The notes below the pieces were generated by a model. That model saw nothing but the letters and a program-made list of their open reading frames with translations. It did no database searches and was not told where the DNA came from. Below, piece after piece: positions 1 through 62,974 of a DNA stretch of 64,000 bases. The translations under genes and the position numbers were made by a program. Position 1 is the first letter of the stretch. Each line of letters opens with the position of its first letter. The DNA lies in NCBI GenBank assembly GCA_014155875.1, contig JACEFZ010021729.1:434001-498000 (forward strand), written 5' to 3'. The DNA is from Cepaea nemoralis. Its lineage: Eukaryota > Mollusca > Gastropoda > Stylommatophora > Helicidae.

Positions 1-520
1 CTTAACCTCTGCCTCTCTGTTTTTCTCTTGACCTCGGCCTCTCTATTTCTGCCTTTACCTCTGCCTCTTTGTTTCTCCCTTGACCTCTGCCTGTCTGTGT
101 CTCCCTTGACCTCTGCCTCTCTGTTTCTTCTCCCCTTTACCTCTGCCTGTCTGTTTCTCCCTTGACCTCTGCCTGTCTGTTTCTCCCTTTACCTCTGCCT
201 CTCTGTTTCTCCCTTTACCTCTGCCTCTCTGTTTCTCCCTTTACTTCTGCCTCTGTTTCTCCCTTGACCTCTTCCTCTCAGTTTTCTTCCTTGACCTCTG
301 CCTCTCTATTTCCCCCTTGACCTCTGCATCTCTGTTTCTCCTTAACCTCTGCCTCTCTGTTTCTCTCTAGACCTCAGCCTCTCTATTTCTGCCTTTACCT
401 CTGCCTGTTTGTTTCTCCCTTGACCTCTGCCTGTCTGTTTCTCCCTTGACCTCTGCCTCTCTGTTTCTCCCTTTACCTCTGCCTGTCTGTTTCTCCCTTG
501 ACCTCTGCCTCTCTTTATTA
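1..520. repeat. 26-bp CT-rich minisatellite in COG5 intron
   Basis: The unit is close to ctttacctctgcctctctgt plus ttctcc, almost purely pyrimidine on the + (sense) strand. It continues off the left edge and ends about 75 bp before the exon acceptor at 594. Confidence 0.9.
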
Positions 521-593
521 GACTGCTTGTTACTGAAGCCTTGTTGGCTTTTTCATGAACTTTTGTCTTGTGTGTGTTTCTGTGTCTATCCAG

Positions 594-693
594 TGAGCTG
601 AATGTATCCAGCGTGGACACCAAGTTGAGCATCACTATTGCAAAAAATGTGGCCAAAACAGTCAAACTGTTCTGCGTGAAGAGTGAGCAGTTG
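594..693 (+). CDS. COG5: COG5 exon (first in window)
   Basis: The acceptor is ctatccag before 594 and the donor is gtaagt at 694. One leading T completes a codon from the previous exon, followed by 33 codons (ELNVSS...VKSEQL, phase 0 at the end). A pyrimidine-rich 26-bp tandem array lies upstream, ending about 75 bp before the acceptor. Confidence 0.93.
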
Positions 694-24700: not shown

Positions 24701-27700
24701 CTGCCAGCATCATGATAAACTAAACTAAGGGAAGCAGAAATTATTCCAAATTCACAGCCGAGCCTCTTGTGCAGGAATCTTTAGAACAACAGTGAAGAAC
24801 AAGGAGACTCCACCATTACAGTAGTACCAAGATTTTTTTACAAAATACTGTTGCTGCAATTTCCTCATTTTATAAAATACTGCTGCTGCAATGACCTACC
24901 TAAACAATACTACCTGGTTTAAAAGTACTGCTGTTGCAATGTCCTGCTTTTAAAAAAAAATACTGCTGTTGCAATGTCCTGATTTTAAAATAGTGCAACT
25001 GCAATGCCTTGATGTTAAAAAAATACTGCTACTGCAAATTCCTATTTTAAAAAAATACTGCTACTGTAATGACCAACTTTTAAAAAAATACAGTTGTTGC
25101 AATGTCCTGGGGTTGTTTTTTTCTAAAGATAGCTGCTGAGGAAATATCCCAATTTAAAAAATACTTGTGCTATAATGTTCTTGACAACAACCAAAACCTG
25201 CTATTGCTGCAATGTCCTGATTTTTAAAAAAAATTCTGCAACTGCAATGTTTGATTTCACTTCGGCGATTTGCCAGATGATCTGACAACCTGAAGCCTCT
25301 ATACAACAGACAAGATGATCTGACAACCTGAAGCCTCTATACAACAGACAAGATGATCTGACAACCTGAAGCCTCTATACAACTAACAGATGATCACAAC
25401 CTGAAGCCTCTATACAACTAACAGACAAGATGATCTGACAACCTGAAGCCTCTATACAACAGACAAGATGATCTGACAACCTGAAGCCTCTATACAACTA
25501 ACAGACAAGATAATCTGCCAACCTGAAGCCTCTATACAACTAACAGATGATTATCTCACAACCTGAAGCCTCTATACAACTAACAGACAAGATGATCTGA
25601 CAACCTGAAGCCTCTATACAACCAACAGATGATTATCTCACAACCTGAAGCCTCTATACAACCAACAGACGATTATCTCACAACCTGAAGCCTCTATACA
25701 ACTAACTGACAAGATGATCTGACAACCTGAAGCCTCTATACAACTAACAGACAAGATGATCTGGCAACCTGAAGCCTCTATACAACTAACAGATGATTAT
25801 CTCACAACCTGAAGCCTCTATACAACCAACAGACAAGATGATCTGACAACCTGAAGCCTCTATACAACCAACAGATGATTATCTCACAACCTGAAGCCTC
25901 TATACAACCAAGAGACGATTATCTCACAACCTGAAGCCTCTATACAACTAACAGACAAGATGATCTGACAACCTGAAGCCTCTATACAACAGACAAGATG
26001 ATCTGACAACCTGAAGCCTCTATACAACTAACAGACAAGATGATCTGACAACCTGAAGCCTCTATACAACTAACAGCAAGATGATCTACAACCTGAAGCC
26101 TCTATACAACTAACAGACAAGATGATCTGACAACCTGAAGCCTCTATACAACTAACAGACAAGATATCTGACAACCTGAAGCCTCTATACAACTAACAGA
26201 CAAGATGATCTGACAACCTGAAGCCTCTATACAACTAACAGACAAGATGATCTGACAACCTGAAGCCTCTATACAACTAACAGACAAGATAATCTGCCAA
26301 CCTGAAGCCTCTATACAACAGACAAGATGATCTGGCAACCTGAAGCCTCTATACAACTAACAGACAAGATAATCTGACAACCTGAAGCCTCTATACAACT
26401 AACAGACAAGATGATCTGACAACCTGAAGCCTCTATACAACTAACAGACAAGATAGATCTGACAACCTGAAGCCTCTATACAACTAACAGACAAGATGAT
26501 CTGACAACCTGAAGCCTCTATACAACTAACAGACAAGATGATCTGACAACCTGAAGCCTCTATACAACTAACAGACAAGATGAATCTGACAACCTGAAGC
26601 CTCTATACAACTAACAGACAAGATGATCTGACAACCTGAAGCCTCTATACAACTAACAGACAAGATGATCTGACAACCTGAAGCCTCTATACAACAGACA
26701 AGATAATCTGCCAACCTGAAGCCTCTATACAACTAACAGACAAGATGATCTGACAACCTGAAGCCTCTATACAACAGACAAGATGATCTGACAACCTGAA
26801 GCCTCTATACAACTAACAGACAAGATGATCTGACAACCTGAAGCCTCTATACAACTAACAGACAAGATGATCTAACAACCTGAAGCCTCTATACAACTAA
26901 CAGACAAGATATCTGACAACCTGAAGCCTCTATACAACTAACAGACAAGATGATCTGACAACCTGAAGCCTCTATACACTAACAGACAAGATGATCTAAC
27001 AACCTGAAGCCTCTATACAACTAACAGACAAGATGATCTAACAACCTGAAGCCTCTATACACTAACAGACAAGATGATCTAACAACCTGAAGCCTCTATA
27101 CAACTACAGACAAGATGATCTACAACCTGAAGCCTCTATACAAACTAACAGACAAGATGATCTAACAACCTGAAGCCTCTATACAACTAACAGACAAGAT
27201 GATCTAACAACCTGAAGCCTCTATACAACTAACAGACAAGATGATCTGACAACCTGAAGCCTCTATACAACTAACAGACAAGATAATCTGACAACCTGAA
27301 GCCTCTATACAACTAACAGACAAGATGATCTCACAACCTGAAGCCTCTATACAACTAGACAAGATGATTATCTGACAAACCTGAAGCCTCTATACAACTA
27401 ACAGATGATTATCTCACAACCTGAAGCCTCTATACAACTAACAGACAAGATGATCTGGCAACCTGAAGCCTCTATACAACTAACAGACAAGATGATTCTG
27501 GCAACCTGAAGCCTCTATACAACTAACAGATGATTATCTCACAACCTGAAGCCTCTATACAACCAACAGGACGATTATCTCACAACCTGAAGCCTCTATA
27601 CAACTAAACAGACAAGATGATCTGGCAACCTGAAGCCTCTATACAACTAACAGACAAGATGATCTCACAACCTGAAGCCTCTATACAACTAACAGATGAT

Positions 27701-30700
27701 TATCTCACAACCTGAAGCCTCTATACAACCAACAGATGATTATCTCACAACCTGAAGCCTCTATACAACCAACAGATGATTATCTCACAACCTGAAGCCT
27801 CTATACAACTAACAGACAAGATGATCTGGCAACCTGAAGCCTCTATACAACTAACAGACAAGATGATCTCACAACCTGAAGCCTCTATACAACTAACAGA
27901 CAAGATGATCTCACAACCTGAAGCCTCTATACAACTAACAGACAAGATGATCTAACAACCTGAAGCCTCTATACAACTAACAGACAAGATGATCTCACAA
28001 CCTGAAGCCTCTATACAACTAACAGACAAGATGATCTAACAACCTGAAGCCTCTATACAACTAACAGACAAGATGATCTGGCAACCTGAAGCCTCTATAC
28101 AACTAACAGACAAGATGATCTCACAACCTGAAGCCTCTATACAACTAACAGACAAGATGATCTAACAACCTGAAGCCTCTATACAACTAACAGACAAGAT
28201 GATCTAACAACCTGAAGCCTCTATACAACTAACAGACAAGATGATCTGGCAACCTGAAGCCTCTATACAACTAACAGACAAGATGATCTCACAACCCTGA
28301 AGCCTCTATACAACTAACAGACCAGATGATCTAACAACCTGAAGCCTCTATACAACTAACAGACAAGATGATCTCACAACCTGAAGCCTCTATACAACTA
28401 ACAGACAAGATGATCTCACAACCTGAAGCCTCTATACAACTAACAGACAAGATGATCTCACAACCTGAAGCCTCTATACAACTAACAGACAAGATGATCT
28501 ACAACCTGAAGCCTCTATACAACTAACAGACAAGATGATCTCAACCTGAAGCCTCTATACAACTAACAGACAAGATGATCTGACAACCTGAAGCCTCTAT
28601 ACAACTAACAGACAGATATCTACAACCTGAAGCCTCTATACAACTAACAGACAAGATGATCTGCAACCTGAAGCCTCTATACAACTAACAGAAGATTATC
28701 TCACAACCTGAAGCCTCTATACAACTAACAGACAAGATATCTACAACCTGAAGCCTCTATACAACTAACAGACAAGATATCTGACAACCTGAAGCCTCTA
28801 TACAACTAACAGACAAGATGATCTCACAACCTGAAGCCTCTATACAACTAACAGAATTATCTCACAACCTGAAGCCTCTATACAACTAACAGAAAGATTA
28901 TCTACAACCTGAAGCCTCTATACAACTAACAGAATTATCTACAACCTGAAGCCTCTATACAACTAACAGATGATTATCTCACAACCTGAAGCCTCTATAC
29001 AACTAACAGACAAGATGATCTGGCAACCTGAAGCCTCTATACAACTAACAGATGATTATCTCACAACCTGAAGCCTCTATACAACTAACAGACAAGATGA
29101 TCTGGCAACCTGAAGCCTCTATACAACTAACAGATGATTATCTCACAACCTGAAGCCTCTATACAACTAACAGACAAGATGATCTGGCAACCTGAAGCCT
29201 CTATACAACCAACAGATGATTATCTCACAACCTGAAGCCTCTATACAACTAACAGACAAGATGATCTGACAACCTGAAGCCTCTATACAACTAACAGACA
29301 AGATGATCTGACAACCTGAAGCCTCTATACAACTAACAGACGATTATCTCACAACCTGAAGCCTCTATACAACTAACAGACAAGATGATCTGACAACCTG
29401 AAGCCTCTATACAACCAACAGACGATTATCTCACAACCTGAAGCCTCTATACAACTAACAGACAAGATGATCAAGGCAGCACAAACAGCTGACAATCTAG
29501 GTATACATACAGGGTTCCCCCAGGCAGGACTTACAGACCTGTTTCCTCAACTAGTTTATCTGAGTCTTCCCTACCTTACATGGAAATTGTCTGTGAACAG
29601 AACAATGATGGGAGCAACCGAGACAGTAATCAACAGATGGCATGAATAGCTGAGCTGCGGCAACACAGTGACTAGACACACGTCTGCCAGTCAGGGATTC
29701 CATCTGCATCAGGGTGAGGCAAAATTTTGTATTGACCTGACTCCCCGATTATCACAACCTAGAATGAGTACCAGAAAATGTCTTGGGAAGACAAGGTGGC
29801 CGGCCTGACACTGCCTACATCACCCACTTAGTTGTTAGGTCTATACAAATATGGACCCTGCAACATATGTCCAATGTGGCTATGGCGTGAACAAGGGTCT
29901 GTTACTTTTTATTTATGAATAACTGATTGCATAACATAATTCTGGCACTGACGAGTAATTTCTGACTGAAATAATGTTCGCTTATATACTGGAACACCTC
30001 CTCTCCTTTTCACCAAATGAGAAACTGGGATAAGGAACAGCCAGAAAAATCTGTGTAGAAAAGGTAACAGCACTGACCAATAACATGTTCCACTAAGAAA
30101 TCAGTTGGGGAACCCTTTGAGACCACTAAAACAGTTCACAAATAAACACATGTGTTATTGCTTGGTGCTCATAGAAGTGAGGAGAAGGAAGTAGAGATTA
30201 TAGGACACACTAGACATCATAAAATTGGAAAGCCTTCAAATGTTATGTTGTACAGTGCGTCCTCTAATCTCTACTTCCTTTTTCTCCTTCTATAAGCACT
30301 AAACAATAATGTGTGTGTTTTATTTGTCTACTAAGAAAACTAATTAACTGCTGGCTTTCAGTCACAAGACATAATGACAGCTAACCTAACCTCATGACTA
30401 GAGGATGATCAACAGCTAACACTAACCTCATGACTAGAGGATGATCAACAGCTAACACTAACCTCATGACTAGAGGATGATCAACAGCTAACACTAACCT
30501 CATGACTAGAGGATGATCAACAGCTAACACTAACCTCATGACTAGAGGATGATCAACAGCTAACACTAACCTCATGACTAGAGGCATCAACAGCTAACAC
30601 TAACCTCATGACTAGAGGATGATCAACAGCTAACACTAACCTCATGACTAGAGGCATCAACAGCTAACACTAACCTCATGACTAGAGGATGATCAACAGC

Positions 30701-33700
30701 TAACACAAACCTCATGACTAGAGGATGATCAACAGCTAACACTAACCTCAAGACTAGAGGATGATCAACAGCTAACACTAACCTCAAGACTAGAGGCATC
30801 AACAGCTAACACTAACCTCATGACTAGAGGATGATCAACAGCTAACACTAACCTCAAGACTAGAGGCATCAACAGCTAACACTAACCTCATGACTAGAGG
30901 ATGATCAACAGCTAACACTAACCTCAAGACTAGAGGCATCAACAGCTAACACTAACCTCATGACTAGAGGATGATCAACAGCTAACACTAACCTCTTGAC
31001 TAGAGGATGATCAACAGCTAACACTAACCTCATGACTAGAGGATGATCAACAGCTAACACTAACCTCATGACTAGAGGATGATCAACAGCTAACACTAAC
31101 CTCATGACTAGAGGCATCAACAGCTAACACTAACCTCATGACTAGAGGATGATCAACAGCTAACACTAACCTCATGACTAGAGGCATCAACAGCTAACAC
31201 TAACCTCATGACTAGAGGATGATCAACAGCTAACACTAACCTCATGACTAGAGGCATCAACAGCTAACACTAACCTCATGACTAGAGGCATCAACAGCTA
31301 ACACTAACCTCATGACTAGAGGCATCAACAGCTAACACTAACCTCATGACTAGAGGATGATCAACAGCTAACACTAACCTCATGACTAGAGGATGATCAA
31401 CAGCTAACACTAACCTCATGACTAGAGGCATCAACAGCTAACACTAACCTCATGACTAGAGGATGATCAACAGCTAACACTAACCTCTTGACTAGAGGAT
31501 GATCAACAGCTAACACTACCTCATGACTAGAGGCATCAACAGCTAACACTACCTCATGACTAGAGGCTGATCAACAGCTAACACTAACCTCTTGACTAGA
31601 GGATGATCAACAGCTAACACTAACCTCTTGACTAGAGGATGATCAACAGCTAACACTAACCTCATGACTAGAGGCATCAACAGCTAACACTAACCTCTTG
31701 ACTAGAGGATGATCAACAGCTAACACTAACCTCATGACTAGAGGCATCAACAGCTAACACTAACCTCTTGACTAGAGGATGATCAACAGCTAACACTAAC
31801 CTCATGACTAGAGGCATCAACAGCTAACACTAACCTCATGACTAGAGGCATCAACAGCTAACACTAACCTCATGACTAGAGGATGATCAACAGCTAACAC
31901 TAACCTCAAGACTAGAGGCATCAACAGCTAACACTAACCTCATGACTAGAGGATGATCAACAGCTAACACTAACCTCTTGACTAGAGGATGATCAACAGC
32001 TAACACTAATCTCATGACTATAGCATGATCAACAGTTAACACTAACCTCATGACTAGAGGCATCAACAGTTAACACTAACCTCATGACTAGAGGCATCAA
32101 CAGTTAACACTAACCTCATGACTAGAGGCATCAACAGTTAACACTAACCTCATGACTAGAGGCATCAACAGTTAACACTAACCTCATGACTAGAGCATGA
32201 TCAACAGCTAACACTAACCTCATGACTAGAGCATGATCAACAGCTAACACTAACCTCATGACTAGAGGCATCAACAGCTAACACTAACCTCATGACTAGA
32301 GGCATCAACAGCTAACACTAACCTCATGACTAGAGCATGATCAACAGCTAACACTAACCTCATGACTAGAGGATGATCAACAGTTAACACTAACCTCATG
32401 ACTAGAGGCATCAACAGCTAACACTAATCTCATGACTAGAGGCATCAACAGCTAACACTAACCTCATGACTAGAGGCATCAACAGCTAACACTAACCTCA
32501 TGACTAGAGGATGATCAACAGCTAACACTAACCTCATGACTAGAGGCATCAACAGCTAACACTAACCTCATGACTAGAAGATGATCAACAGCTAACACTA
32601 ACCTCATGACTAGAGGATGATCAACAGCTAACACAACCTCATGACTAGAGGATGATCAACAGCTAACACTAACCTCATGACTAGAGGATGATCAACAGCT
32701 AACACTAACCTCATGACTAGAGGATGATCAACAGCTAACACTAACCTCATGACTAGAGGATGATCAACAGCTAACACTAACCTCATGACTAGAGGATGAT
32801 CAACAGCTAACACTAACCTCATGACTAGAGGATGATCAACAGCTAACACTAACCTCATGACTAGAGGATGATCAACAGCTAACACTAACCTCATGACTAG
32901 AGGATCAACAGCTAACACTAACCTCATGACTAGAGGATGATCAACAGCTAACACTAACCTCATGACTAGAGGATGATCAACAGCTAACACTAACCTCATG
33001 ACTAGAGGATGATCAACAGCTAACACTAACCTCATGACTAGAGGATCAACAGCTAACACTAACCTCATGACTAGAGGATGATCAACAGCTAACACTAACC
33101 TGGCGACTAGAAGCTGATTAACAGCAAATGCTAACCTGGTAGTAAGATCTAAATAATATTCTAACCATTCACTACAGTCATTGTTGAACCTTATTCACAT
33201 ATAAAAAATATTCTAAACATCCACTACAATCATGGTTGAATCTCATTGAGATATCAATAACAGTTATACATTCACCATAATCATGGTTAGACCTCATTCA
33301 CATATCAATAACATTCTAAACATTCACTGCAGTCATGGTTGAACCTTGTTCACATAGCAATGATATTTGAAACATTCACTGCAGTCATGGTTGAAACTCA
33401 TTTATATGTGTCAATAATATTCTAAACATTCAGTGCAAATACATACTGACCATTTTTCACACATCAATCATTTACTAAACATTCACCATAATCCTGGCTG
33501 ACCCACTTTCAGATATAAATAATATTCTAAACATTCACTGTAATCATATTTGAACCTTGTTTACATATCAATAACATTCTAAACATGCAATGCAATCATT
33601 GTTGAACATCTTTCACATATCAATTATCTGACATTATTTATTATGATTATTTTCACTCTAATCATGGTTGAACCTTGTTCGCATACCAATAACATTCTAA

Positions 33701-36700: not shown

Positions 36701-39700
36701 CGTGTTTTCCATTGATCTCTTCACAACCCATGTTATCTGATCCAATCTTGGCCCATGGAAATTGTGATAATGACATTTCTTTGATGACCTATAGTTATTT
36801 ATAGTTTTGTGTAAAATTCCTCCTAAAGTGGTTCACCCTTATCTAAAAATCACAGCCTCCAACTCTATTAGTGCTTCCTCTGCCTTTTTAGACAGCATTA
36901 GGGTCCCTCCTTCACTGTAAGTGGCATTTTCCTCTGCATAGCTTAAGAACAGCACTATTTCACCTGTGTTAAGAAGCTTTTTGCCAGCTCCATTCCATCT
37001 TCTTTTGCATAATCTCAGAATGCTGATATTATTTTTAATTTAACCCACCACTCGTACCGCCTGTCCCAAATGATAATAATTTCAACACTCCAGGTGCTCA
37101 TTCTGGAGATTTTCCTAGGAGAAAGGAGATAATCCAGCGACCCAGACTCCTTACAGCTTTCTCCACATCGTATCATACTCCTTCCAGAAGAAGAGCCTCC
37201 TTTCATCTTGGTTGGCTGAGTTAATGTTTCTTTCCTTTTCGTGAGACTTGTTCACAGTTGGTTGATTTTCTAACTGAAGTTTTATATGATGTGAGGTAGC
37301 CAATCCCAAGCCAATCCTGGCTAGCTGCCTCTTACAACATGCATGTAGATTGCAGTGTTATTATTCTATGCTTCCTTTAAAGGCCCCAGTAACACATGGA
37401 GCATTGACTTCAATTGAATCTACACACATATGATGCTTATCTACAATGTAATGTGGACAAATTATGCTGGACTTTAACTAAACTAAATAAAGGTTTTATT
37501 TTCTTCAATATAATCTTTACCACTTATGTTGTCCTCAATCTAATTCACGAGTGTGTTGGTGTAACAGTTAGGATGTTATGCTGACAATGGCAAGAGATGA
37601 GAGTTCAATGTCAGCTCTCCTTGTTCGCTATGGGACGAAAAGACTGACCACTTACTCCATTGAGCACTCAGCCTACAATCTAATCTGGACTCATTTCTGT
37701 CTCCAATCTAGTATAGACTACGCCTGTCTTCAGTCTACTTTGAACACAATTATGTCTGTCTTCAATCTACTTTGAACATAATTACATCAGTCTTCGATCT
37801 ACTCTGAACACAATTACATCTGTCTTCAATCTACTTTGAACACAATTATGTCTGTCTTCAATCTGCTCTGAACATAATTACGTCTGTCTTCAATCTCCTT
37901 TGAACACAATTATGTCTGTCTTCAATCTACTCTGAACAGAATTATATCTGTTTTCAATCTACTTTAAACATAATTACATCTGTCTTCAATCTACTTTGAA
38001 CATAATTATGTCTGTCTTCAATCTACTTAGAACATAATTACATCAGTCTTCAATCTACTTTGAACATAATTATGTCTCTTCAATCTATTCTGAACACAGT
38101 TAACTGATAACTGAACACAGCTGTAGATGATCTTCCTAGCATCGATAGGTTCTGCCCAGACAATCTCCTGTGCACACATTAAGACACTCCAACAAGCTGC
38201 ACTAGCTACCGTCTACTATAGAAGCAAGTAAAGCCAAACACAACAAAAGTGCATCCTTCTGGCAGAGAACATGTCACAGTCTGGGGGTAGAGGCTTACCT
38301 GATGGGCATACAGTGTATCATAAACTAAGGTCCACAGGATACACGAGCTATATAAAGGCAGGCACACCAGCCAATCAACAGAACCCGCCACGGCAGACCA
38401 CCCTAATAAAGCACCATAGTTGAATGCAAAGCCTGGTAGAAAGGAAAATGATGCCAAGCATGTATTTTAAGTGTCATGTCTTCTCTTTCTTTCACAAACA
38501 AAACAAGGGTTGGGGGTGTCTTAGGTGCGTGGCTTTGTCTGCTTTGTGACATCTTCTAGTCAATAATGTTGGCTGGGGTTAATAGGATGAGATCGCATAG
38601 TAACAGCTTCAACAACTCAACAGTCACACCTTCGTTAAAATGTTGTGATCAGGTGACATGCACAGCTATGGACCCCAAACACAGTAACAGCTGCAGTAAC
38701 TCAACACTCAAACCTTCATTAAAATGTTGGGATCAGGTGACATGCACAGCTGTGGATCCCACACACAGTAACACCTGCAACAACTCAACACTCAAACCTT
38801 TATTAAAATGTGATTAAGTGACATGCACAGCTGTACACCCCACACACAGTAACAGCTGCAACAACTCAACACTTGAACTTTCATTAAAATGTTGTGATCA
38901 GGTGACATGCACAGCTGTGGACCCCACACAAAGTAACAGCTGCAACAACAACTAAACACTCAAACCTTCATTAAAATGTTGTGATCAGCTGATACGCACA
39001 ACTGTAGACCCCACATACAGCAACAGCTGCAACAATTCAAGACTCAAACCTTCATTAAAATGTGATTGGGTGACATGCACAGCTGTGGACCCCACATACA
39101 GTAACAACTGCAACAACTCAACACTCGAACCTTCATTAAAATGTTGTGATCAGGTGACATGCACAGCTGTGGACCCCACACACAGTAACAACTGCAACAA
39201 CTCAACACTCGAACCTTCATTAAAATGTTGCAGTCAGTAACAAGATGAGTTCATGTATTAACAGATGCAACAACTCAACCCTCAAACCATCTTTAAAACA
39301 TTGCAGTCAGTAACTCAATGAGTTTATGTAGTAACACTGCAACAACTCAACACTAAAACTGTCATTAAAACATTGCAGTCAGTAACACAATGCATTTAGT
39401 TTTGTGTTTATGTAGTAACACTACAACAACTCAATACTTGCTTGCTTGTGTTCGTTGGCTTGAGCTCCAACGTGAGGTCCTGTATGTCAGATGAAGGCAT
39501 CCTGTTGTCCAACATCAGTGTGATGTCATACAGGACCTGAGGTTTGCGTGAGTATCCGTTGTCCCATGTCTGGCTTATTGGTGTGCAGACTGGTGGTTCC
39601 TCGCCGTACAGGTAGACACTCTCCGACTTCGGAGGAATCGGCGATCCTATTGACTTTAGCCAGGACCCCGAAGGGACCTGTTGCCCAGGACGCTCGACGA

Positions 39701-42700
39701 GGACGCGTCAATAGGTCTTGGCCAGTATATAACCCGGCCCTGGTGCCTTGGAAATACCTCTGCGTCCCAACTCAATACTTAAACTGTCATTAAAACATTG
39801 CAGTCAGTAACACAATGAATTCATGTAATAACAACTGAACATTAAAACCATCGTTAAAACATTTCTGTAAGTAACAAGATGAGTTCATGTAGTGACAGCT
39901 GCAACAATTCAGCAAGCAACCCTTTGTTACAATATTTCAGTCAGGTTAACAGGTTGAGCTCATGTAGCAACAACTCAACACTTCATTAAAACATTGCAGT
40001 CAGGTGGCATGTGCAACTCTCAACCCACACACACAGTAATAGCTGCAACAATTTAACACTCAAACCTTCATTGCATTCAGGCAACATGCTCAGTTGTAGC
40101 CACACGCACAGCAACAACTCAACACTGTCATATTAACTCTTTCTGTACTTATCACATATTTAATATTTCTTCTGGAGGCCAGTATGGCTGAATGGATAAG
40201 AACACACATTCTTAAACATCCGGTGCGCTGATGCCGAGGTAAGGGGTTTAACCCCTACATTGGACAGTTGGACTAAAATGCTGACCTCTCATCCTTGCCT
40301 TGGGGATGTAAATTACAAGTACCTGTGAAGTCGTAGTGGGTTCGCCTGATGGCGAGGGACACTGGTAATAGGAAAAGCTAATCCACATGCAAAATTCAGT
40401 CCAGCACTACTAGAATTAGCGTGTATGAACTATGCTTGAATTCAAAGCGGGCGAGCGAGAATCAAAAATGTTCTCATAACCAACTGCTATATTATCGCAC
40501 TTTATCCTAATTATTACTTTAACTGTTTCTGTCCCATACAAGTGTTAATACTTCACACCCACACTTGACAAGCTGTTTCTTTAACCCCTGTCTTAAACAG
40601 TTCTTCAGTTATCTCCTACAGCATCTGTTTTAGAATAACAGTTGTTTAGGAATAGGATGAGTTAAAACAATGGAATGGAACTCAAACCTTTACCATTCTA
40701 TGTGTACATGCAGCCAGGGAGCGAGCCATGCCGGTGAGGTGGCTAGCATGCTTGTTTACAGGTCAGAGGTCCTGTGTTTAAATCTTTAAGGCAGGTACTA
40801 TTTTTCACTGACTTGGGATAGACCTAGCCTAAAATATATTCTAGGAGAGAGCCTGGGAAGTAAACACAGCCTGATTTGACCATATAACCCATCAAGTGCT
40901 GATCAGTCTACAAATATGGGGGTGGCACCATATATTCAAAGACATGAAAAGAAGTCCTCACATGTAGTCAAGTAACATGAGGTCAAGTGACATGTGGTCA
41001 AGTGACATGAGGTCAAGTGACATGTGGTCAAGTGACATGAGGTCAAGTGACATGTGGTCAAGTGACATGAGGTCAAGTGACATGAGGTCAAGTGACATGT
41101 GGTCAAAGTGACATGTAGTCAAAGTGACATGTAGTCAAAGTGACATGTAGTCAAGTGACATGTGGTCAAGTGACATGTGGTCAAAGTGACATGTGGTCAA
41201 GTGAGTGATATGTGGTCAAGTGACATGAGGTCAAGTGAGTGATATGTGGTCAAGTGACATGTGGTCAAGTGACATGAGGTCAAGTGACATGTAGTCAAAG
41301 TGACATGTAGTCAAGTGGCATGTGGTCAAAGTGACATGTGGTCAAAGTGACATGTAGTCAAAGTGACATGTAGTCAAGTGACATGTGGTCAAGTGACATG
41401 AGGTCAGTGACATGTGGTCAAGTGACATGTGGTCAAAGTGGCATGAGGTCAAGTGACATGTGGTCAAGTGACATGTGGTCAAGTGACATGTAGAGCTCCA
41501 GCCCTCAGACAAATATTGTTCTACACCTACAGTATGAGTCTATGACAAATAATGGATGACCAAAAAGTAATGCTGGGAATTAAATATGAATAAAAGCATG
41601 CAAATAGGAAAAGTGAGACTACATAATATATGTGCTAGGGTTGTAGTGTCACATATCATATGTATCATATGTCACATGTCTTCTGCATGTCAGTTACATC
41701 TTGGTGCAGCAAAGTTACACGTAAGGGGGACGGAGCATGTGTGGGTATGCCCTGAGTGGATAGATGTTGATATATACAAGGAAGATTCAGTTAAAACAAC
41801 CAGGAGTAGAAACATGCAGCTAGAAAGAACCAGGAAGAAGTTACCCCCATGTATTGTAACCTAATAATAATCATGACAGAATCAATCTAAAACATTGTAG
41901 AAATAACCAAACAGCAATCATGTATGTCAACATTAAGTCTCTAAAATTATAAACAGTCCATATAGCAATCATCATGTCTATCAACGTTATAAACAGAAAG
42001 AACACATCAGCATTCATCATGTACATCAACAATATAAACAGAAGCAGTCATATGGCAATCATCATGTCTAACAAAATCATAAACATAAACATTAACACAG
42101 CATCATGTCTATCAACATTCATCAACAGAAACATTCATACAGCATCATGTCCATCAACATTCATCAACAGAAACAACACAACGGCATTGATAATGTATCT
42201 CAACATTATAAATATAAGCAATTACACAGCAACTGGCATGTCTACCAACATTACAAACATAAACAAGCACATGGCAAATGTCATGTCTATCAACATAAAC
42301 AGAAACAAATGTCATGTCTATTAACATAAACAAATGTCATATCTATCAATATGAACAGAAACAACAACTGTCATGTCTATCAACATAAACAGAAACAAAT
42401 GTCATGTCTATTAACATAAACAGAAACAAATGTCATATCTATCAACATGAACAGAAACAACAACTTTCATGTCTATCAACATAAACAGAAACAAATGTCA
42501 TGTCTATCAATATGAACAGAAACAACAACTGTCATGTCTATCAACATAAACAGAAACAAATGTCATGTCTATCAACATAAACAGAAACAAATGTCATATC
42601 TATCAACATGAACAGAAACAACAACTGTCATGTCTATCAACATAAACAGAAATAAATGTCATGTCTATCAACATGAACAGAAACAACTACTGTCATGTCT

Positions 42701-45700
42701 ATCAACATAAACAGAAACAAATGTCATATCTATCAACATAAACAGAAACAAATGTCTTATCTATCAACATGAACATAAACAAATGTCTTATCTATCAACA
42801 TGAACAGAAACAACAACTGTCATGTCTATCAACATAAACAGAAACAAATGTCATGTCTATCAACATGAACAGAAACAAATGTCATGTCTATCAACATGAA
42901 CAGAAACAACAACTGTCATGTCTATCAACATAAACAGAAATAAATGTCATGTCTATCAACATGAACAGAAACAACTACTGTCATGTCTATCAACATAAAC
43001 AGAAACAAATGTCATATCTATCAACATAAACAGAAACAAATGTCATGTCTATCAACATGAACAGAAACAAATGTCTTATCTATCAACATGAACAGAAACA
43101 ACAACTGTCATGTCTATCAACATAAACAGAAACAAATGTCTTATCTATCAACATGAACAGAAACAAATGTCATGTCTATCAACATGAACAGAAACAACTA
43201 CTGTCATGTCTATCAACATAAACAGAAACAAATGTCATATCTATCAACATAAACAGAAACAAATGTCATGTCTATCAACATGAACAGAAACAAATGTCTT
43301 ATCTATCAACATAAACAGAAACAACAACTGTCATGTCTATCAACATAAACAGAAACAAATGTCATATCTATCAACATAAACAGAAACAAATGTCTTATCT
43401 ATCAACGTGAACATAAACAAATGTCTTATCTATCAACATGAACAGAAACAACAACTGTCATGTCTATCAACATAAACAGAAACAAATGTCATGTCTATCA
43501 ACATAAACAGAAACAAATGTCATATCTATCAACATGAACAGAAACAAATGTCTTATCTATCAACATAAACAGAAACAAATGTCATATCTATCAACATGAA
43601 CAGAAACAAATGTCTTATCTATCAACATAAACAGAAACAAATGTCATATCTATCAACATAAACAGAAACAAATGTCATATCTATCAACATGAACAGAAAC
43701 AAATGTCTTATCTATCAACATTAACAGAAACAACAACTGTCATGTCTATCAACATAAACAGAAACAAATGTCATGTCTATCAACATAAACAGAAACAAAT
43801 GTCATGTCTATCAACATGAACAGAAACAAATGTCTTATCTATCAACATGAACAGAAACAACAACTGTCATGTCTATCAACATAAACAGAAACAAATGTCT
43901 TATCTATCAACATGAACATAAACAAATTTCTTATCTATCAACATGAACATAAACAAATGTCTTATCTATCAACATGAACAGAAACAACAACTGTCATGTC
44001 TATCAACATAAACAGAAACAAATGGCATGTCTATCAACATAAACAGAAACAAATGTCATATCTATCAACATGAACAGAAACAAATGTCTTATCTATCAAC
44101 ATAAACAGAAACAAATGTCATATCTATCAACATGAACAGAAACAACAACTGTCATGTCTATCAACATAAACAGAAACAAATGTCATATCTATCAACATGA
44201 ACAGAAACAAATGTCTTATCTATCAACATGAACATAAACAACAACTGTCATGTCTATCAACATAAACAGAAACAAATGTCTTATCTATCAACATAAACAG
44301 AAACAAATGTCTTATCTATCAACATGAACATAAACAAATGTCTTATCTATCAACATGAACAGAAACAACAACTGTCATGTCTATCAACATAAACAGAAAC
44401 AAATGTCATGTCTATCAACATAAACAGAAACAAATGTCATATCTATCAACATGAACAGAAACAAATGTCTTATCTATCAACATAAACAGAAACAAATGTC
44501 ATATCTATCAACATGAACAGAAACAAATGTCTTATCTATCAACATAAACAAATGTCATATCTATCAACATAAACATAAACAAATGTCATATCTATCAACA
44601 TGAACAGAACAAATGTCTTATCTATCAACATGAACAGAAACACAACTGTCATGTCTATCAACATAAACAGAAACAAATGTCATGTCTATCACATGAACAG
44701 AAACAAATGTCTTATCTATCAACATGAACAGAAACAAATGTCTTATCTATCAACATGAACAGAAACAAATGTCATATCTATCAACATGAACAGAAACAAC
44801 AACTGTCATGTCTATCAACATAAACAGAAATAAATGTCATGTCTATCAACATGAACAGAAACAAATGTCATGTCTATCAACATGAACAGAAACAAATGTC
44901 TTATCTATCAACATAAACAGAAACAACAACTGTCATGTCTATCAACATAAACAGAAACAAATGTCATATCTATCAACATAAACAGAAACAAATGTCTTAT
45001 CTATCAACATGAACAGAAACAAATGTCTTATCTATCAACATGAACAGAAACAACAACTGTCATGTCTATCAACATAAACAGAAACAAATGTCATGTCTAT
45101 CAACATAAACAGAAACAAATGTCATATCTATCAACATGAACAGAAACAAATGTCTTATCTATCAACATAAACAGAAACAACAACTGTCATGTCTATCAAC
45201 ATAAACAGAAACAAATGTCATGTCTATCAACATAAACAGAAACAAATGTCATATCTATCAACATGAACAGAAACAAATGTCTTATCTATCAACATAAACA
45301 GAAACAAATGTCATATCTATCAACATGAACAGAAACAAATGTCTTATCTATCAACATAAACAAATGTCATATCTATCAACATAAACATAAACAAATGTCA
45401 TATCTATCAACATGAACAGAAACAAATGTCTTATCTATCAACATGAACAGAAACAACAACTGTCATGTCTATCAACATAAACAGAAACAAATGTCATGTC
45501 TATCAACATGAACAGAAACAAATGTCTTATCTATCAACATGAACAGAAACAAATGTCTTATCTATCAACATGAACAGAAACAAATGTCATATCTATCAAC
45601 ATGAACAGAAACAACAACTGTCATGTCTATCAACATAAACAGAAATAAATGTCATGTCTATCAACATGAACAGAAACAACTACTGTCATGTCTATCAACA

Positions 45701-48700
45701 TAAACAGAAACAAATGTCATATCTATCAACATAAACAGAAACAAATGTCATGTCTATCAACATGAACAGAAACAAATGTCTTATCTATCAACATGAACAG
45801 AAACAACAACTGTCATGTCTATCAACATAAACAGAAACAAATGTCTTATCTATCAACATGAACAGAAACAAATGTCATGTCTATCAACATGAACAGAAAC
45901 AACTACTGTCATGTCTATCAACATAAACAGAAATAAATGTCATGTCTATCAACATAAACAGAAACAACAACTGTCATGTCTATCAACATAAACAGAAACA
46001 AATGTCTTATCTATCAACATGAACAGAAACAAATGTCATGTCTATCAACATGAACAGAAACAACTACTGTCATGTCTATCAACATAAACAGAAACAAATG
46101 TCATATCTATCAACATAAACAGAAACAAATGTCATGTCTATCAACATGAACAGAAACAAATGTCTTATCTATCAACATGAACAGAAACAACAACTGTCAT
46201 GTCTATCAACATAAACAAACAAATGTCATATCTATCAACATAAACAGAAACAAATGTCTTATCTATCAACATGAACATAAACAAATGTCTTATCTATCAA
46301 CATGAACAGAAACAACAACTGTCATGTCTATCAACATAAACAGAAACAAATGTCATGTCTATCAACATAAACAGAAACAAATGTCATATCTATCAACATG
46401 AACAGAAACAAATGTCTTATCTATCAACATAAACAGAAACAAATGTCATATCTATCAACATAAACAGAAACAAATGTCATATCTATCAACATGAACAGAA
46501 ACAAATGTCTTATCTATCAACATGAACAGAAACAACAACTGTCATGTCTATCAACATAAACAGAAACAAATGTCATGTCTATCAACATAAACAGAAACAA
46601 ATGTCATGTCTATCAACATGAACAGAAACAAATGTCTTATCTATCAACATGAACAGAAACAACAACTGTCATGTCTATCAACATAAACAGAAACAAATGT
46701 CATATCTATCAACATAAACAGAAACAAATGTCATATCTATCAACATAAACAGAAACAACAACTGTCATGTCTATCAACATAAACAGAAACAAATGTCATA
46801 TCTATCAACATAAACAGAAACAAATGTCTTATCTATCAACATAAACAGAAACAACAACTGTCATGTCTATCAACATAAACAGAAACAAATGTCATATCTA
46901 TCAACATAAACAGAAACAAATGTCTTATCTATCAACATGAACATAAACAAATGTCTTATCTATCAACATGAACAGAAACAACAACTGTCATGTCTATCAA
47001 CATAAACAGAAACAAATGTCATGTCTATCAACATAAACAGAAACAAATGTCATATCTATCAACATGAACAGAAACAAATGTCTTATCTATCAACATAAAC
47101 AGAAACAAATGTCATATCTATCAACATGAACAGAAACAAATGTCTTATCTATCAACATAAACAGAAACAAATGTCTTATCTATCAACATGAACAGAAACA
47201 ACAACTGTCATGTCTATCAACAAAAACAGAAACAACCACACAACAGTGATCACTGTAAATAGAAATCCTGGCCTGGCTGTGATACTGCAAATTCTGGACA
47301 TCTTATAAAATTGTCAGTTTGATTTACTGATGCTATAATTCTACAAAGACTTTGGGGGATATTTATTTTCCTCACATATAATGATGCTTCTAGTTTGAAA
47401 TACTGACCATGTACTGCCAATTAAAACCTAGATAATTATGATAAGAACAATAACAAAAATACTTGTAATACAACAAAATCAAACATTTCTCTAGTGAAAA
47501 ACCTGTACCACCTATGCAAGGAATTATTTTGATTTTGATTAACCAAAAGACTACTTGTATCCTGATTAAAAAACTTACTACTTTTATTTTGATTAACAAA
47601 AAGACTACTTTTATTTAAATTTACCAAAAGACTTAGCAGTTTATCCCACAATAAATGTAAAAATGTCAAGAAAAAGAAAGAATCTTTCAACGTTCAATGG
47701 TTACATATATTTAACAAATATGATAACTAAAGTTTCTGTTATCCAATTTGAGTTAGAAGGCTCAATCTTGTCCACCTTGTCAGCTCCATCACTCTCCTGG
47801 TTGTCATCTCTGCTGCTGCTATGATCACCACTTTGTAAGTTTAAAATCTAACCTTGTCATTTTCAATTTATCATGTCAAGATACTACTACACAAACTATT
47901 CACAGCACAGCATTACTATTATGTTAAGATTTTGTAAACCAATCACAGTTAGCCCTACCATCATGCCAAGATACTACTAACCAATCAAAGTTCAGCACTA
48001 CCATCATGCCAAGAAACTACTGACCAATCAAGTCCTACCATCATCCAAAGGTACTACAAACCAATCACAGTATAAACCTTTCATCATGTTAAAATACTAC
48101 AGAACAATCAAGACAGCACAACCTACCATCATATCAACATACTACAGACCAATCACAATAGTCCTATCATGTTTTAAATATTACAGACCAATCACAGTAA
48201 AGCCCTACCATCATAAAACACTATAGTCCAATCACAGTACAGCCATATAAACATGTCAGGAGACTACCGACCAATCACAGCCCTAACATCCACTCAGTGC
48301 AAATGGAATCATCTGTAAAATAAGTTTGCTTAATAAACATCATAGAAGACCCAACAACCAGACCACAGCCAGAACCAAAGGGAAAACAGCAGAAGGGAGG
48401 ACATTCACTGTAACAAAACTCAGTACCCAAAGCAAGAAAAGTAATGGCCAAGTAACTGCAATATTTTAACTAAATAATGCAATATTTTTATAATAAAATA
48501 ACAGCAATAACATACTAGCAATTATTGTTTTTGGCGAACAATTTATGAGATGTCTGCTGACGTGTAAAAGATGTTTCCCAAGAGGACAATCTCAAAGATG
48601 TGTCCTGGCGAGTCTATACATTTCTTCCAAAGCTGGCAGTGTGACAGCAGGGACTCACAGTGTCAACCTTTGAGCTCATGTGTTGCATTATGAATTGACA

Positions 48701-51700
48701 ATTCTATCTTGTAAACTGACAATGTCACATAAGTCACAACAGTGTCATATCATGAACAGTGTCAAAGCATAGGCAGTGTCACATCATAAACTGAGAGTGT
48801 CACATTATTCACAACAGCATCACACCATGAACTGACAGTGTCACATCATAAAATGACAGTCACATCATAAACTGAGTGTCACATTATAAAGTGACAGTGT
48901 GACATCATGGACAATATCACATCATAAACTGACAATGTCACATCATAAACTGACAGTGTCACATCATGGACAACATCATGTCCTGAACTGTCATATTATG
49001 GATAATGTCATGGAATGACACAACTGTCCAATCATGAACTGACAGTATCACATTTTGAAGTGACAATTCCATCTAGTGGACAATCTCACATCATTCACAG
49101 TGTCACATGATGAACAGACATCACATTATGCACACACAGCATCACATTGTGGGTTAACAAGTGTCATATTTTGGACAGACAGTGATATCTATTAAGCTCA
49201 CAATATTTACACAACACACTAACAATGTCACATCACTGACATTACCTGACTGGCACCTTGCTAACTTGATAGACGGTAGTTTGTAAAATGGAGTTATACT
49301 CCTCCATAACACAAAGTGTGGACTAAATTTAGATACCATGTGTTGCCCATGAAGCATGATCCCATCAGCCTGGCTAGTTTACTCCAGAGGAAAGGTAACA
49401 CCAATATGTCTGGAATAAGACAAGCTGCAGAAGCTGCAGGATCAGCCAAGCAATGCTCTAACTATCCGCTTGTCCTAGACCAGTTGCCTACCAAGGCTTA
49501 GGGCCTGGTCTGCCCTGCCATCACATTTAGTCTTTAAGTTACATTTCCTCGCACTAGGGTAAGGCTTGTACCTGCCCAATTGCGCTCCTCTGCCCAAAGC
49601 AGTTGGCACAATATGGGATGTTGGGTTTGGTGAGGGCCTCCTAAAATTTGGCGCTAATAAAAAGCAGGTAGTATTGTTTACTGTCATAAGGTAGCTCAGT
49701 CATATGTGACTATACTTATCGACATTACCACACACAAAAACAAAAGACTAACAGTATCACATCATAGACGGACAGTGTTGGATAACTTGTGTCACACAAT
49801 GGACTGACTCATGGAATGACAGTGCTATATATGGACTGACAATATCATGTTGTGGACTGATTTATGGACTGACAGTGTCACATCATGGACAATGCCACAC
49901 CACAAAAGTGTTAACCAGGGACTAGAAGTGTCACTTATTAACAGTGTCACACTATGTACTGACAGTGTCACACCATGGACTGACAGTGTCACACCATGTA
50001 CCAACAGTGTCACACTATGGACTGACAGTGTCACTTCATGAACTTAAAGCATCACACCATGTACTGACAGTGTCACACTATGGATTGACAGTGTCACATT
50101 ATGGATTGACAATGTCAGATTATGGACTGTCTGTCTCACATAATGGACTGACAGTGTAACATCATGGACAATGCCACATCATGAAAGTGTCACACTATGG
50201 ACTTAAGCGTCACACTATAGATTAACAATGTCACACTGGGGACTTACAATGTCATATAGTGAACTGGCAGGGCCACATCATGAACTGAAAGCAGTCTCAC
50301 TGCATGACTGACATTGTGAAAATTATGAAGTGGTAGTGGTACCTGGCAGTGTCACACAAAGGATATGATAATGTCACTGAAGTGACAGTATCAAATAATT
50401 AGTTGACAGTACCATCATGAATGGACTGCGCCTCATCTCAAATCAACAGAATCACATCATAATTATGTCACCATGGACTGACAGTATTGTATTGTCAAAT
50501 AACTGCCACACCTATGAAATGCAGTGTCATCTAGTGAAGTGACAATATCACAACTCGGACTGTGAGCTGACACTGTGGAGACATTATGAACTGACCGTGC
50601 CCTTCATGCAAGGACTGATAGTATTGTACCGCCAGCCGACTGTCACACCAGTGACTGGCAGTTACATTGTGGACTGACAGAAGAACTGTCATCTGAATGT
50701 ATGTACCTGGTGTGCGTAAATCGTGTCATATATGACTGTTTGCAAGGAACAGGTGAGGTATAAGACGATGGCTGGCAGCTCCACTGATCCCATTAGAGAT
50801 GACCAAGCCATCAGGACACCCCAGTTTAGTGTCAGGCCTGAAACAGAAGTAGGTTATCGTTTCCTTCACATCATACAATTTCGGCAACTGTAACCATCAT
50901 GATATGAGTGATCCATCACTATTACACTTATAACAATTACACACAGTGATATAAGGGGACTATCATTCTTACATTGACATCAATCATTTATCCAGGTGAA
51001 CCCACTGCAACATCTGAGATACTTGTAATTTACAACCCCAAGTCAAGGATGACAAGTCACACATTTTAGTCTAGCTGACTGGTATAGGAGTTAAACCCGC
51101 TACCTCTGTATCAGCAGACTGGAAGTTTAGGAGTCAGACTCTTATAATTTGGGCATGCTGACCTCAAACACTGATATAATCACACCATTCCTACACTGAT
51201 ATCAATCACACCATTCCCACACTGATATCAATCACACCATTCACACACTGATATCAACCACACCATTCACACACTTATATCAATCACACCATTCACACAC
51301 TAATATCAATCACACCATTCACACACTAATATCAATCACACCATTCACACACTGATATCAACCACACCATTCACACACTTATATCAATCACTGAAGTGAT
51401 ATGGTGGAACCATTACTGATACACTGATTACACTGGTATGACTCACTTAAATGAAATTAAGAGATTATCACTTTCACAATGACATTAATAACTCAACTGC
51501 AATATCTTCACTGTTACACAGACGACATCAATCATTCAAGTGACACAAGAGGAACATCCCCGTTAGGTGAAATGAGGGGAAAATCATTCACATGCTGACA
51601 TCAATTAACTCAGTAGTATGAGGGAACCATTACTCACAGACTGACAGAAATCATAAAGTGACATGAGGAGAACATCATTCACACTATGACACCAATGACT

Positions 51701-54700
51701 CAAATGATATGAGGAGTGTAAGTAGGAGTGTGTAAATGAGCTCAGGTGAATCCTGGCTGAGAGTCACTTCATCATCATCATGTGCCATACTGATAATCAT
51801 GGGTGATCATGTTTTGCTATCTCATACCATCACCAGAATCTTGGATAATCATGGGTGGTCATGTTGTGATATCTCATACCATCATCAGAATCTTGGATAA
51901 TCATGGGTGGTCATGTTGTGATATCTCATAACATCACCAGAATCTTGGATAATCATGGTGGTCATGTTGTGATATCTCATACCATCACCAGAATCTTGGA
52001 TAATCATGGGTGGTCATGTTGTGATATCTCATAACATCACCAGAATCTTGGATAATCATGGGTGGTCATGTTGTGATATCTCATACCACTACAAGAATCT
52101 TGGATCAGCTGTGTTCTTGTCTTGATTATGCCATGAGGCCAAACTATCCAAATATTTATCTCTGCTTTCCCTTGCTCTTTTCTCATAAATCTTCCCAGTT
52201 TGTCCACTAAGTTTTCCAGTATTTCTCCACATAATGTGCAACTGCAGGGTTACATTTGTGAATTAGAATACTGGGTTGACAGACATTTGCAGACTGTACA
52301 GTTAATTGCATGAATTAGAATAGGGTGTTGACTGAAATCTGCAGACTGTACTGTTAATTGGGTGAATTAGAATAGGGGGTTGACTGAAATCTGAGGTAAT
52401 TGTAGGGTTAGATGTGTGTGTGAATTAGAATCATGAATTATGAAGCAGCTGGGGGGTTAGATGCATGAACATAATGGGTTGGCTGAAAACAGTAGATTTA
52501 TGTCAGTATCAACAGTGAGTGATGAAACAATTGCTGCACTAGAGGATGCATACTCCCACAAATATATATATATTTACACACCTACCTGTCTGTCAGTATT
52601 AATTGTGAGTGATAAGACAGACACTAGCTAGAAGCTGTAATGTTTCCACAAATACAGGTATACCTTTGTCAAATGTCAACAGTGAATACGGAACAATCAC
52701 ATCTATTATGCGTTTTTTGCCCTGAGTAAACATTTTTTTCTCAGCAAGTCTTCTGTCCCACAGCAAGTAAGCCTGAGTGTTCCCACAACTACACAATATA
52801 ATCATGCAATACAGTCACACAACATAAGTACACAGTATAAAGACACAAAACACTCACATTATACAATCATATAAAAATGAAATTCATGTCATCACAGGAG
52901 ACCATTGGGTAAGTAGAGAACTTTCACTTCATACCTCAGCTGACCGGTTATAACCAGCTCTAGATGTACAATGTATAATGTGACCAGTTATCACCAGCTG
53001 TAGGTGTGCAATGTATTTGTACAATATGACCGGTTATCACCAGATGTAGGTGTTCAATATATATGTACAATATAACCGGTTATCACCAGCTGTAGGTGTA
53101 CAATGTATGCAAACAATATGACCGGTTATCACCAGCTGTAGGTGTACAATGTATGCGAACAATATGACCGGTTATTACCAGGTACAGATGTACAACGTGT
53201 ATGTGGGGTCTGGGGTGTCAGGCATTGGTAGCACCTTTGGTAAGGATGACTGTCACTCCCTTTTCAGGGACCATTCCCCACTGGTCCAAGCCTGACATCC
53301 AGCTCACGCCTGTGGCTCCTAGTGGCTGTCAGCATATGATAGTGGCCATCCCCCCGGGGCAACAGCTGCGACAGGCTGGCTAAACCAGGCTTGGTTAACT
53401 GAATTTTGTGTCAAACCAAGCAGTGAACTAGGGTATGCCTACCTAGCATGTGAAGACAGGATTTGGCAGACTGCGCAGAAGAAATCATTGATGATTCAAG
53501 GGGCAAGAAGGCATTTACCTGCAAAGTGTTGTGGAACGTAATGAGCACAGCAAGGCACATAGAGTGCCCTGGTCACCCACTGCACCTGTATCCGTCTCCA
53601 GTCGTCTTGACTTGTCTTGCCACTGGACTCAGATGAACTCAGGCGAGAGAGTGAGGTCGACGAATTGCGCAACTCTTCCTCACTTTAATCCAATTCACTG
53701 CGCAAGTCATTCTTCATTCAACTTCATATATCACCTTCAAGCCCTGTGGTGATTAGTGAGCGGACAAGCGGCAAGCGTGGGTTAAGATCAGATTCGCTGG
53801 GCTGGTCACTTAACTCGTATGCCAGATCACAGATTATCTAAACAAATTTTTTACGGCAAGCTGCGTTGTGGTAAATGCTCTGAAGGCGGCTACAGGAAAC
53901 GCTTTAAAGACACTCTGAAAATCTCACTGAAAGCTTTTGGAATTAATCATGACACCTGGAAGACTGCTGCCAAAGACCGAAATTCGTGGCGTACATCATT
54001 ACACAAGGGTGCAGTCACTCGTGAAGCAACCAGAACTGCAAGAGCTGTGAAGAAAAGACTGGACAGAAAAACCACTGCAGGAGATCCTCCTCCAGAAACG
54101 TCAAGCATTCTTTGCCCACATTGACAAAGAACAATTTGAGCCATAAAAAGGCCTTATGAGCCATCTTAGAACTCTCTTGATGGACAAACAACATAATATG
54201 ATCATTATGTGTACACAATGTACACATAAACACATAAAGATAATACAGACACAATGTAATGCACATATTAACATACAGAGACAACAAACACACATAAAGT
54301 ACACAATATATAGACAATGAACATACACATGTAATGTACACATTAATATACATCAACAAATCATTCAGAACATTAATGCACAGATTAATATAGAGACAAA
54401 ACATATGTAAGCAATCCACATATTCATGTACAGAAACCACCACAGTTAAATAATGCACACATTAATTTATGTGCTGTGTCATTACATATGAGGGCAGTCC
54501 AAAAAGAAACTAGACTATTTGAAAAAAAAATTGGTTTGCTATACTTATAAATTCTCTCCTTTGAAATAGTTCCTTCCACGGTTGATACATAGCTCCCAAA
54601 ATGTGTTCCAGCTTTGAAATGTATCCTGGAAATCAATTTCTGGGATAGCATACTTGTCTTGCATTATATTGTCCAGGACCTATTCTATGGTAGGAGGCTG

Positions 54701-61559: not shown

Positions 61560-62893
61560 AATGCAAGTGACAGTGTTAACTAACACAACCATAACTATAC
61601 ACAATCACATGGATAGAAGTGACACAATGTTAACTATCACAGACATCACTATATACAATCACAGGGATACAAGTGACACAATGTTAACTATCACAGACAT
61701 CACTATACACAATCACATGGATAGAAGTGACACAACGTTAACTATCACAGACATCACTATATACAATCACAGGGATACAAGTGACACAATGTTAACTATC
61801 ACAGACATCACTATACACAATCACAGAAATACAAGTGACACAATGTTAACTATCACAGACATCACTATACACAATCACAGGGATACAAGTGACACAATGT
61901 TAACTATCACAGACATCACTATACACAATCACAGGGATACAAGTGACACAATGTTAACTATCATAGACATCACTATACACAATCACAGGGATACAAGTGA
62001 CACAATGTTAATATCACAGACAGCAATATACACAATCACAGGGATACAAGTGACACAATGTTAACTATCACAGACATCACTACACAATCACAGGGATACA
62101 AGTGACACAATGTTAACTATCACAGACATCACTATACACAATCACAGAAATACAAGTGACACAATGTTAACTACCACAGACATCACTATACACAATCACA
62201 GAAATACAAGTGACACAATGTTAACTATCACAGACATCACTATACACAATCACATGGATAGAAGTGACACAATGTTAACTATCACAGACATCACTATACA
62301 CAATCACAGGGATACAAGTGACACAATGTTAACTATCACAGACATCACTATACACAATCACAGGGATACAAGTGACACAATGTTAACTATCACAGACATC
62401 ACTATACACAATCACAGGGATACAAGTGACACAATGTTAACTATCACAGACATCACTATACACAATCACAGGGATACAAGTGACACAATGTTAACTATCA
62501 CAGACATCACTATACACAATCACAGAGATACAAGTGACACAATGTTAACTATCACAGACATCACTATACACAATCACAGGGATACAAGTGACACAATGTT
62601 AACTATCATAGACATCACTATACACAATCACAGGGATACAAGTGACACAATGTTAATATCACAGACAGCAATATACACAATCACAGGGATACAAGTGACA
62701 CAATGTTAACTATCACAGACATCACTACACAATCACAGGGATACAAGTGACACAATGTTAACTATCACAGACATCACTATACACAATCACAGAAATACAA
62801 GTGACACAATGTTAACTATCACAGACATCACTATACACAATCACAGAATACAAGTGACACAATGTTAACTATCACAGACATCACTATACACAA
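61560..62893. repeat. 54-bp minisatellite with higher-order duplication
   Basis: About 24 copies of gacacaatgttaactatcac, agacatcactatacacaatc, acagggatacaagt. A variant run (aatatcacagacagcaatat) occurs at 62008 and again at 62655, showing a ~650-bp block duplication. ORFs at 61552-62064 and 62110-62709 exist only because 54 is divisible by three. Confidence 0.97.
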
Positions 62894-62974
62894 TAAAGTC
62901 AATATCACTCCGGCCACTTATACATGTCCTGCTTTCCATTTCAGGCTGGCTCAACTAGACAGCCCAGGTCAATG

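Follow-up and report, generated by a model that had tools for sequence, protein, structure and literature searches.

A window of 64,000 nucleotides (nt), the whole stretch of DNA analysed here, from the land snail Cepaea nemoralis (contig JACEFZ010021729.1, positions 434,001 to 498,000; contig C20150 below) contains six coding exons of COQ2, all on the minus strand. Two of them, an e-type and an a-type alternative exon, occupy one and the same slot between shared flanking exons. The COQ2 features, in window coordinates, are as follows.

61545-61424, minus strand: COQ2 exon x3, 122 nt (exon assembly and tblastn with human COQ2)
57975-57890, minus strand: COQ2 exon x4, 86 nt, ending in phase 1 and preceding the alternative slot
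50837-50707, minus strand: e-type alternative exon, 131 nt, 44 residues counting the split Gly (tree and profile)
50829-50827, minus strand: e exon codon CTA, Leu at C. elegans place 204, the e-type state
50715-50713, minus strand: e exon codon GCA, Ala at C. elegans place 243
38432-38299, minus strand: a-type alternative exon, 134 nt, 45 residues (tree and profile)
38424-38422, minus strand: a exon codon TTC, Phe at place 204
38307-38305, minus strand: a exon codon GCC, Ala at place 243
23951-23763, minus strand: COQ2 exon x6, 189 nt, beginning in phase 0
21715-21536, minus strand: last COQ2 coding exon x7 with the stop, 180 nt

Gene structure and splice frame

Two further coding exons lie upstream of the window, and the gene spans more than 46 kb in this species; a first exon with the start codon was not found when the gene was assembled from contig matches. 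The best database matches of the predicted protein are COQ2, and it is a member of the UbiA prenyltransferases, with the UbiA domain PF01040 at E = 1.1e-26 in a piece of the a-form and E = 3.7e-25 in a piece of the e-form. The homology query for the exons was a human COQ2 sequence, which in a tblastn search of 178 kb (two contigs) matched the e exon at E = 3.2e-9 and the a exon at E = 2.4e-16, so that the pair is not a product of chance.

The initial annotation had placed two homologous exons of equal phase in this slot, and the coordinates that it gave for both, as well as for the flanking boundaries at 57890 and 23951, proved to be exact. Both exons are entered in phase 1, splitting a Gly codon, and left in phase 0, and all COQ2 splice sites here are AG/GT. 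When the exons are joined in silico, the combinations x4-e-x6 and x4-a-x6 keep the frame open down to the stop, and x4-e-a-x6 and x4-x6 run into premature stops. The frame would therefore enforce exclusivity at the protein level, and a full protein would be expected only from mRNAs that include exactly one of the two exons. Two features go beyond what had been annotated, namely the difference in length between e and a (131 vs 134 nt, or 3 nt) and the alanine at position 243 of the e exon.

Assignment of the exons to the e and a types

The pair had also been likened to the coq-2a/coq-2e exons, and a tree of exon peptides bears this homology out. Its 65 rows comprise 34 e and 31 a peptides, from the window's two exons and those of 57 of 125 database proteins, and the e and a peptides part in one split with support of 98/86, to be read with the limits of 45 columns, 35 of 61 inner branches unresolved and a bootstrap that had not fully settled. 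The exon at 50.8 kb falls among the e-type exons, grouping with those of Bradybaena and of protein P0001 within the heterobranch e exons, and the exon at 38.4 kb sits beside Candidula among the a-type exons. The same assignment follows from a residue profile for which no land snail was used in training (36 e and 95 a rows), with scores of +38.4 bits for the e exon and -60.3 bits for the a exon; among its twelve strongest columns only column 44, which holds Ala243, is a-like in the window's e exon. In a topology test one split between e and a has an advantage of about 24 log units, and neither a molluscan clade of a and e exons (approximately unbiased test, p-AU 0.078) nor a nematode one (p-AU 0.099) is rejected. 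Both topologies would thus be compatible with these sequences, and neither one nor several origins of the exon pair is claimed.

The closest database proteins are those of Bradybaena similaris (81%), P0001 (79%) and Candidula unifasciata (73%), Bradybaena and Candidula both belonging to the order Stylommatophora. With the alternative slot removed, the gene tree places the window's protein together with these three at 100/100. The Candidula database protein is an a-form and hence shows no e exon, and no additional land-snail e exon was found among the 10 and 11 proteins returned by exon-restricted protein searches of exact-word candidates.

Public gene models P0010, P0045, P0059, P0060, P0072, P0115 and P0121-P0125 carry an e and then an a exon joined in one protein. 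Such fused models probably come from annotation pipelines that do not model this exon pair.

The two marker residues

Tan et al. 2020 describe e exons by two residues that they call invariant, Leu204 and Ser243 (C. elegans numbering; PMC7434440), and residue 243 is placed third from the end of the exon (PMC12403961). In C. bovis the two places likewise lie 39 residues apart. The equivalent Ala of human COQ2 is residue 252 in a sequence of 371 residues and residue 302 where the longer numbering is used. The window's a exon has Phe204 and Ala243, as a-type exons do; the e exon has the expected Leu204 but Ala instead of Ser at 243.

Residue 243 was surveyed across the 125 database proteins, 37 of which have an e exon readable there (P0115, P0124 and P0125, whose e-exon ends are spoiled in the gene models, were left out of the count). 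Ser occupies the place in 34 of the 37, including near-copies from Mytilus coruscus (two), Ruditapes (two) and Trichinella (three), and Ala in the other three, which are P0001 and P0002, grouping as land snails, and P0042 from the nemertean Tubulanus. All 96 F204-type exons read have Ala at 243. The gene tree includes 21 molluscan rows with a readable e exon, and all three land snails have Ala243, unlike the 18 others, which without exception have Ser243. Parsimony over the 23 rows with a state at residue 243 requires at least two changes, one of them in nemerteans. The simplest history would be a single Ser-to-Ala reversal on the land-snail stem, based on three species. As far as their sequences go, land snails thereby separate the two marker residues in nature.

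Comparison with other animals

The pair resembles exons 6a and 6e of coq-2 in C. elegans and helminths (PMC7434440) in that homologous exons share one slot and both flanking exons, with Leu204 in e and Phe204 and Ala243 in a. It differs from the C. elegans pair in having Ala243 rather than Ser in the e exon and lengths of 131 and 134 nt rather than 134 nt for both; alternative splicing and rhodoquinone are predictions for the snail. Like the e exons of the molluscan e-forms listed, with which it clusters, the e exon encodes 44 residues. Molluscan a/e pairs are already published, the molluscs sampled by Tan et al. being Crassostrea virginica and Biomphalaria glabrata (PMC7434440), and with Ser243 missing the land-snail pair is a variant of the known switch and not a typical case of it.

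In the e exons of annelids (Alvinella and siboglinids), the second marker is described as showing no clear pattern (PMC12403961), so that exceptions exist outside molluscs; unlike these, the land-snail change is uniform (3/3) and nested in a Ser background. The nemertean Tubulanus protein P0042 combines Leu204 and Ala243 as land snails do, but its exon is otherwise near the a-type (profile score +0.2 vs +38.4 bits for the snail), and on the gene tree it is an independent case.

Nemerteans themselves have e-type exons, in Tubulanus polymorphus (P0042, Leu204 and Ala243) and Lineus longissimus (P0051, Leu204 and Ser243). Tan et al. list e exons for helminths, annelids and molluscs only (PMC7434440), and no paper treating rhodoquinone together with nemerteans was found among the open-licence papers searched.

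Copy number and condition of the e exon

A search for copies covered the whole 3.47-Gb assembly. Each exon is present once on the window contig C20150 and once on contig C3006, which carries COQ2 with the identical order x4-e-a-x6, and no further copy of either was found among the 17 candidates scored. Contig C3006 is likely the other haplotype. The two contigs differ at 0 of 131 bases in the e exon, at 0 of 134 in the a exon and at 3 of 1,084 in the COQ2 coding sequence read. The collinear blocks around e and a show 0.6% and 1.0% mismatches, from which about two exon differences would be expected; the identity of the exons is therefore by itself not strong evidence of constraint and lies within chance.

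Among land snails the pairwise difference is 20.5% for e exons and 16.5-19.8% for the rest of the protein, giving e/rest ratios of change of 1.04, 1.24 and 1.13, and the 153 pairs formed by the 18 other molluscs have a median ratio of 1.09 (range 0.50-3.17). By this comparison there is no sign of e-exon decay in land snails. Protein P0001 is a 503-residue e-form with Leu204 and Ala243. Its source contig is 1,656 nt long, and given that the gene exceeds 46 kb in Cepaea this contig is likely a spliced transcript. Its AlphaFold2 model (mean predicted local distance difference test score, pLDDT, of 70.6, with most of the first 164 residues below 50) matches UbiA structures, 4OD5 included; pLDDT is 83-93 in the e-exon blocks 321-360 and 63 in the block 361-370, which holds Ala 361.

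Splicing signals

Compared with the consensus, the e donor differs at +4 and +5 and the a donor at +6 only, which would fit the a exon being the default. Control of the choice by low oxygen, which the initial annotation had proposed, is an extrapolation from parasites.

Three candidate mechanisms for the splice choice were tried, none of which is adopted. The hexamer TGCATG (UGCAUG), a Fox-type motif, occurs on the minus strand at 50610-50605, 97 nt past the e donor, and at 38662-38657, 230 nt before the a acceptor, a layout that would favour e and disfavour a. It is a weak candidate: 10-13% of the gene's 300-nt stretches contain one and six motifs were tried; the second copy moreover belongs to an 84-nt minisatellite, and C3006 has more copies of the motif. 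Steric exclusion between e and a does not fit an intron as long as the one between them (12.3 kb in the window, 9.0 kb on C3006), and U12 introns do not fit either, every site being GT-AG and none having the U12 donor form.

Quinone pathway and proposed function

Direct evidence on the two isoforms comes from C. elegans, in which worms without exon 6e have essentially no detectable rhodoquinone and worms without 6a have greatly lowered ubiquinone (PMC7434440), and in which F204L and A243S put into COQ-2a restored cyanide recovery with 6e absent (PMC8659336). By analogy with the worm genetics, COQ2a would prenylate 4-hydroxybenzoate on the way to ubiquinone. COQ2e would in addition take 3-hydroxyanthranilate, a product of the kynurenine pathway, and so lead to rhodoquinone, a carrier suited to life at low oxygen. 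In the stem lineage of land snails, position 243 would have changed from Ser to Ala with Leu204 and the remaining e signature kept, leaving Leu204 as the main determinant and COQ2e less selective. Leu204 and the remaining e columns would be expected to preserve part of the rhodoquinone function of the snail COQ2e, at lower selectivity.

Exon matches to TDO are present in the Cepaea genome, kynureninase is represented by five exons in order on contig C10379 (each below the whole-protein cut-off) and KMO by four ordered exons on C20786 with weaker pieces on C9538 and C9543 (query, a human KMO). Since TDO, KMO and kynureninase are encoded, the rhodoquinone precursor 3-hydroxyanthranilate is likely to be available in Cepaea. 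Exons of HAAO, which consumes 3-hydroxyanthranilate, and of AOX and ETFDH were also matched. The sole match to Pfam PF01494, L051, was not counted as KMO, for it resembles squalene monooxygenase in its motif.

Taken together, it is probable (about 0.68) that the COQ2 gene of this land snail has homologous a-type and e-type exons in one slot, likely with exactly one used per mRNA, and that the e exon, as predicted from its residues, steers the enzyme toward rhodoquinone despite Ala243. Several points weigh against this. To our knowledge there is no single-residue test of 204 or 243. In land snails another residue stands in place of Ser243, which Tan et al. call invariant among e exons (PMC7434440), and the C. 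elegans edit altered 204 and 243 jointly (PMC8659336), so that Leu204 alone is unproven and, with Ala in place of Ser, the C. elegans result cannot simply be transferred to the snail. Ser also stands at the aligned 243 place of the archaeal enzyme 4OD4, whose name is 4-hydroxybenzoate transferase. The related pond snail Lymnaea expresses the kynurenine pathway, and 3-hydroxyanthranilate is reported as the sole metabolite that its hemolymph did not show (PMC9481534). Mammals, for which rhodoquinone has now been reported (PMC13174367), have no e exon according to Tan et al. (PMC7434440), so that exon and quinone are not strictly tied. Finally, no report on rhodoquinone or COQ2 exons in land snails was found in the open-licence literature, searched mostly at the level of titles and abstract starts.

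Alternative explanations

The second exon could belong to another gene or be a misjoined copy, that is, a paralogue or an assembly artefact, and the setting invites the suspicion, as the published Cepaea nemoralis assembly left some haplotypes apart (PMC8022989) and COQ2 itself stands on two contigs. Yet both contigs show the order x4-e-a-x6, the e-then-a order recurs in gene models of Mytilus coruscus and several nematodes, and neither exon was matched elsewhere among the scored candidates; this explanation is disfavoured and seems hardly credible. It is only slightly less improbable that splicing no longer includes the e exon, which would then persist as a relic. The e donor, off consensus at two positions against one in the a exon, would fit such a loss, but the open frame, the AG/GT sites and the length are kept in the window and on C3006, the exon is in frame in two other land snails, one of whose e-forms (P0001) likely comes from a transcript, and it changes no faster than in other molluscs.

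A more serious rival, though still an unlikely one, is that the land-snail e isoform has been retuned, such that with Ala243 it no longer favours 3-hydroxyanthranilate and serves mainly the ubiquinone precursor or some other need, the exon remaining under selection and life on land having relaxed the need for rhodoquinone. The replacement is found in all three land-snail e exons and in none of the 18 other molluscan rows, it restores the residue of all 96 F204-type exons, and it was the double change F204L;A243S that rescued cyanide recovery in C. elegans (PMC8659336). Against retuning, the other e-type columns are retained, the kynurenine pathway enzymes are still encoded, and Ser seems not to be a marker of rhodoquinone in the wider family, given its presence in 4OD4. 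The Alvinella paper, for its part, finds in annelids that the first residue is the most diagnostic and the second without clear pattern (PMC12403961), which supports Leu204 as the more diagnostic of the two. A bolder proposal, which we offer tentatively and regard as possible rather than probable, is that land snails split the two-residue code in their move to land, their COQ2e with Leu204 and a restored Ala243 being a dual-substrate or ubiquinone-leaning second COQ2 maintained by selection.

Repeats and other features

Long minisatellite arrays with units of 31 to 127 nt crowd the introns and flanks of COQ2, and intron lengths differ between C20150 and C3006. The arrays and the open frames that look, by their motifs, like reverse transcriptase or other protein fragments of long interspersed nuclear elements (LINE-like) are located in the window as follows.

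795-2696, 25275-29472, 30377-33137, 42275-47235 and 61570-62894: minisatellite arrays
12435-13028, minus strand: presumed LINE-like open frame
6672-6992, plus strand: presumed LINE-like open frame
53786-54124, plus strand: presumed LINE-like open frame

Elsewhere in the assembly, the 284-kb contig C25837 begins with mitochondrial genes on one strand (1-12622), namely nad2, cox1, nad6, nad5, nad1, nad4L, cob and cox2. The contig is either a large nuclear mitochondrial copy or chimeric. The gene order could be read as bivalve-like, but a bivalve host was rejected: the order fits euthyneurans as well, and the COQ2 matches and gene tree indicate a land snail.

Implications

The e exon serves as a genomic sign of rhodoquinone on the basis of two residues, both of which were altered at once in the only direct test found (PMC8659336), and land snails would offer a natural test of which of these residues sets the choice of substrate. 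Should land snails contain rhodoquinone, they would be added to the animals known for anaerobic quinone chemistry, with a bearing on dormancy; should they lack it, the e exon could not be trusted as a marker. If the two-residue code is indeed split, the switch would be evolvable residue by residue, and rhodoquinone could no longer be deduced from an e exon.

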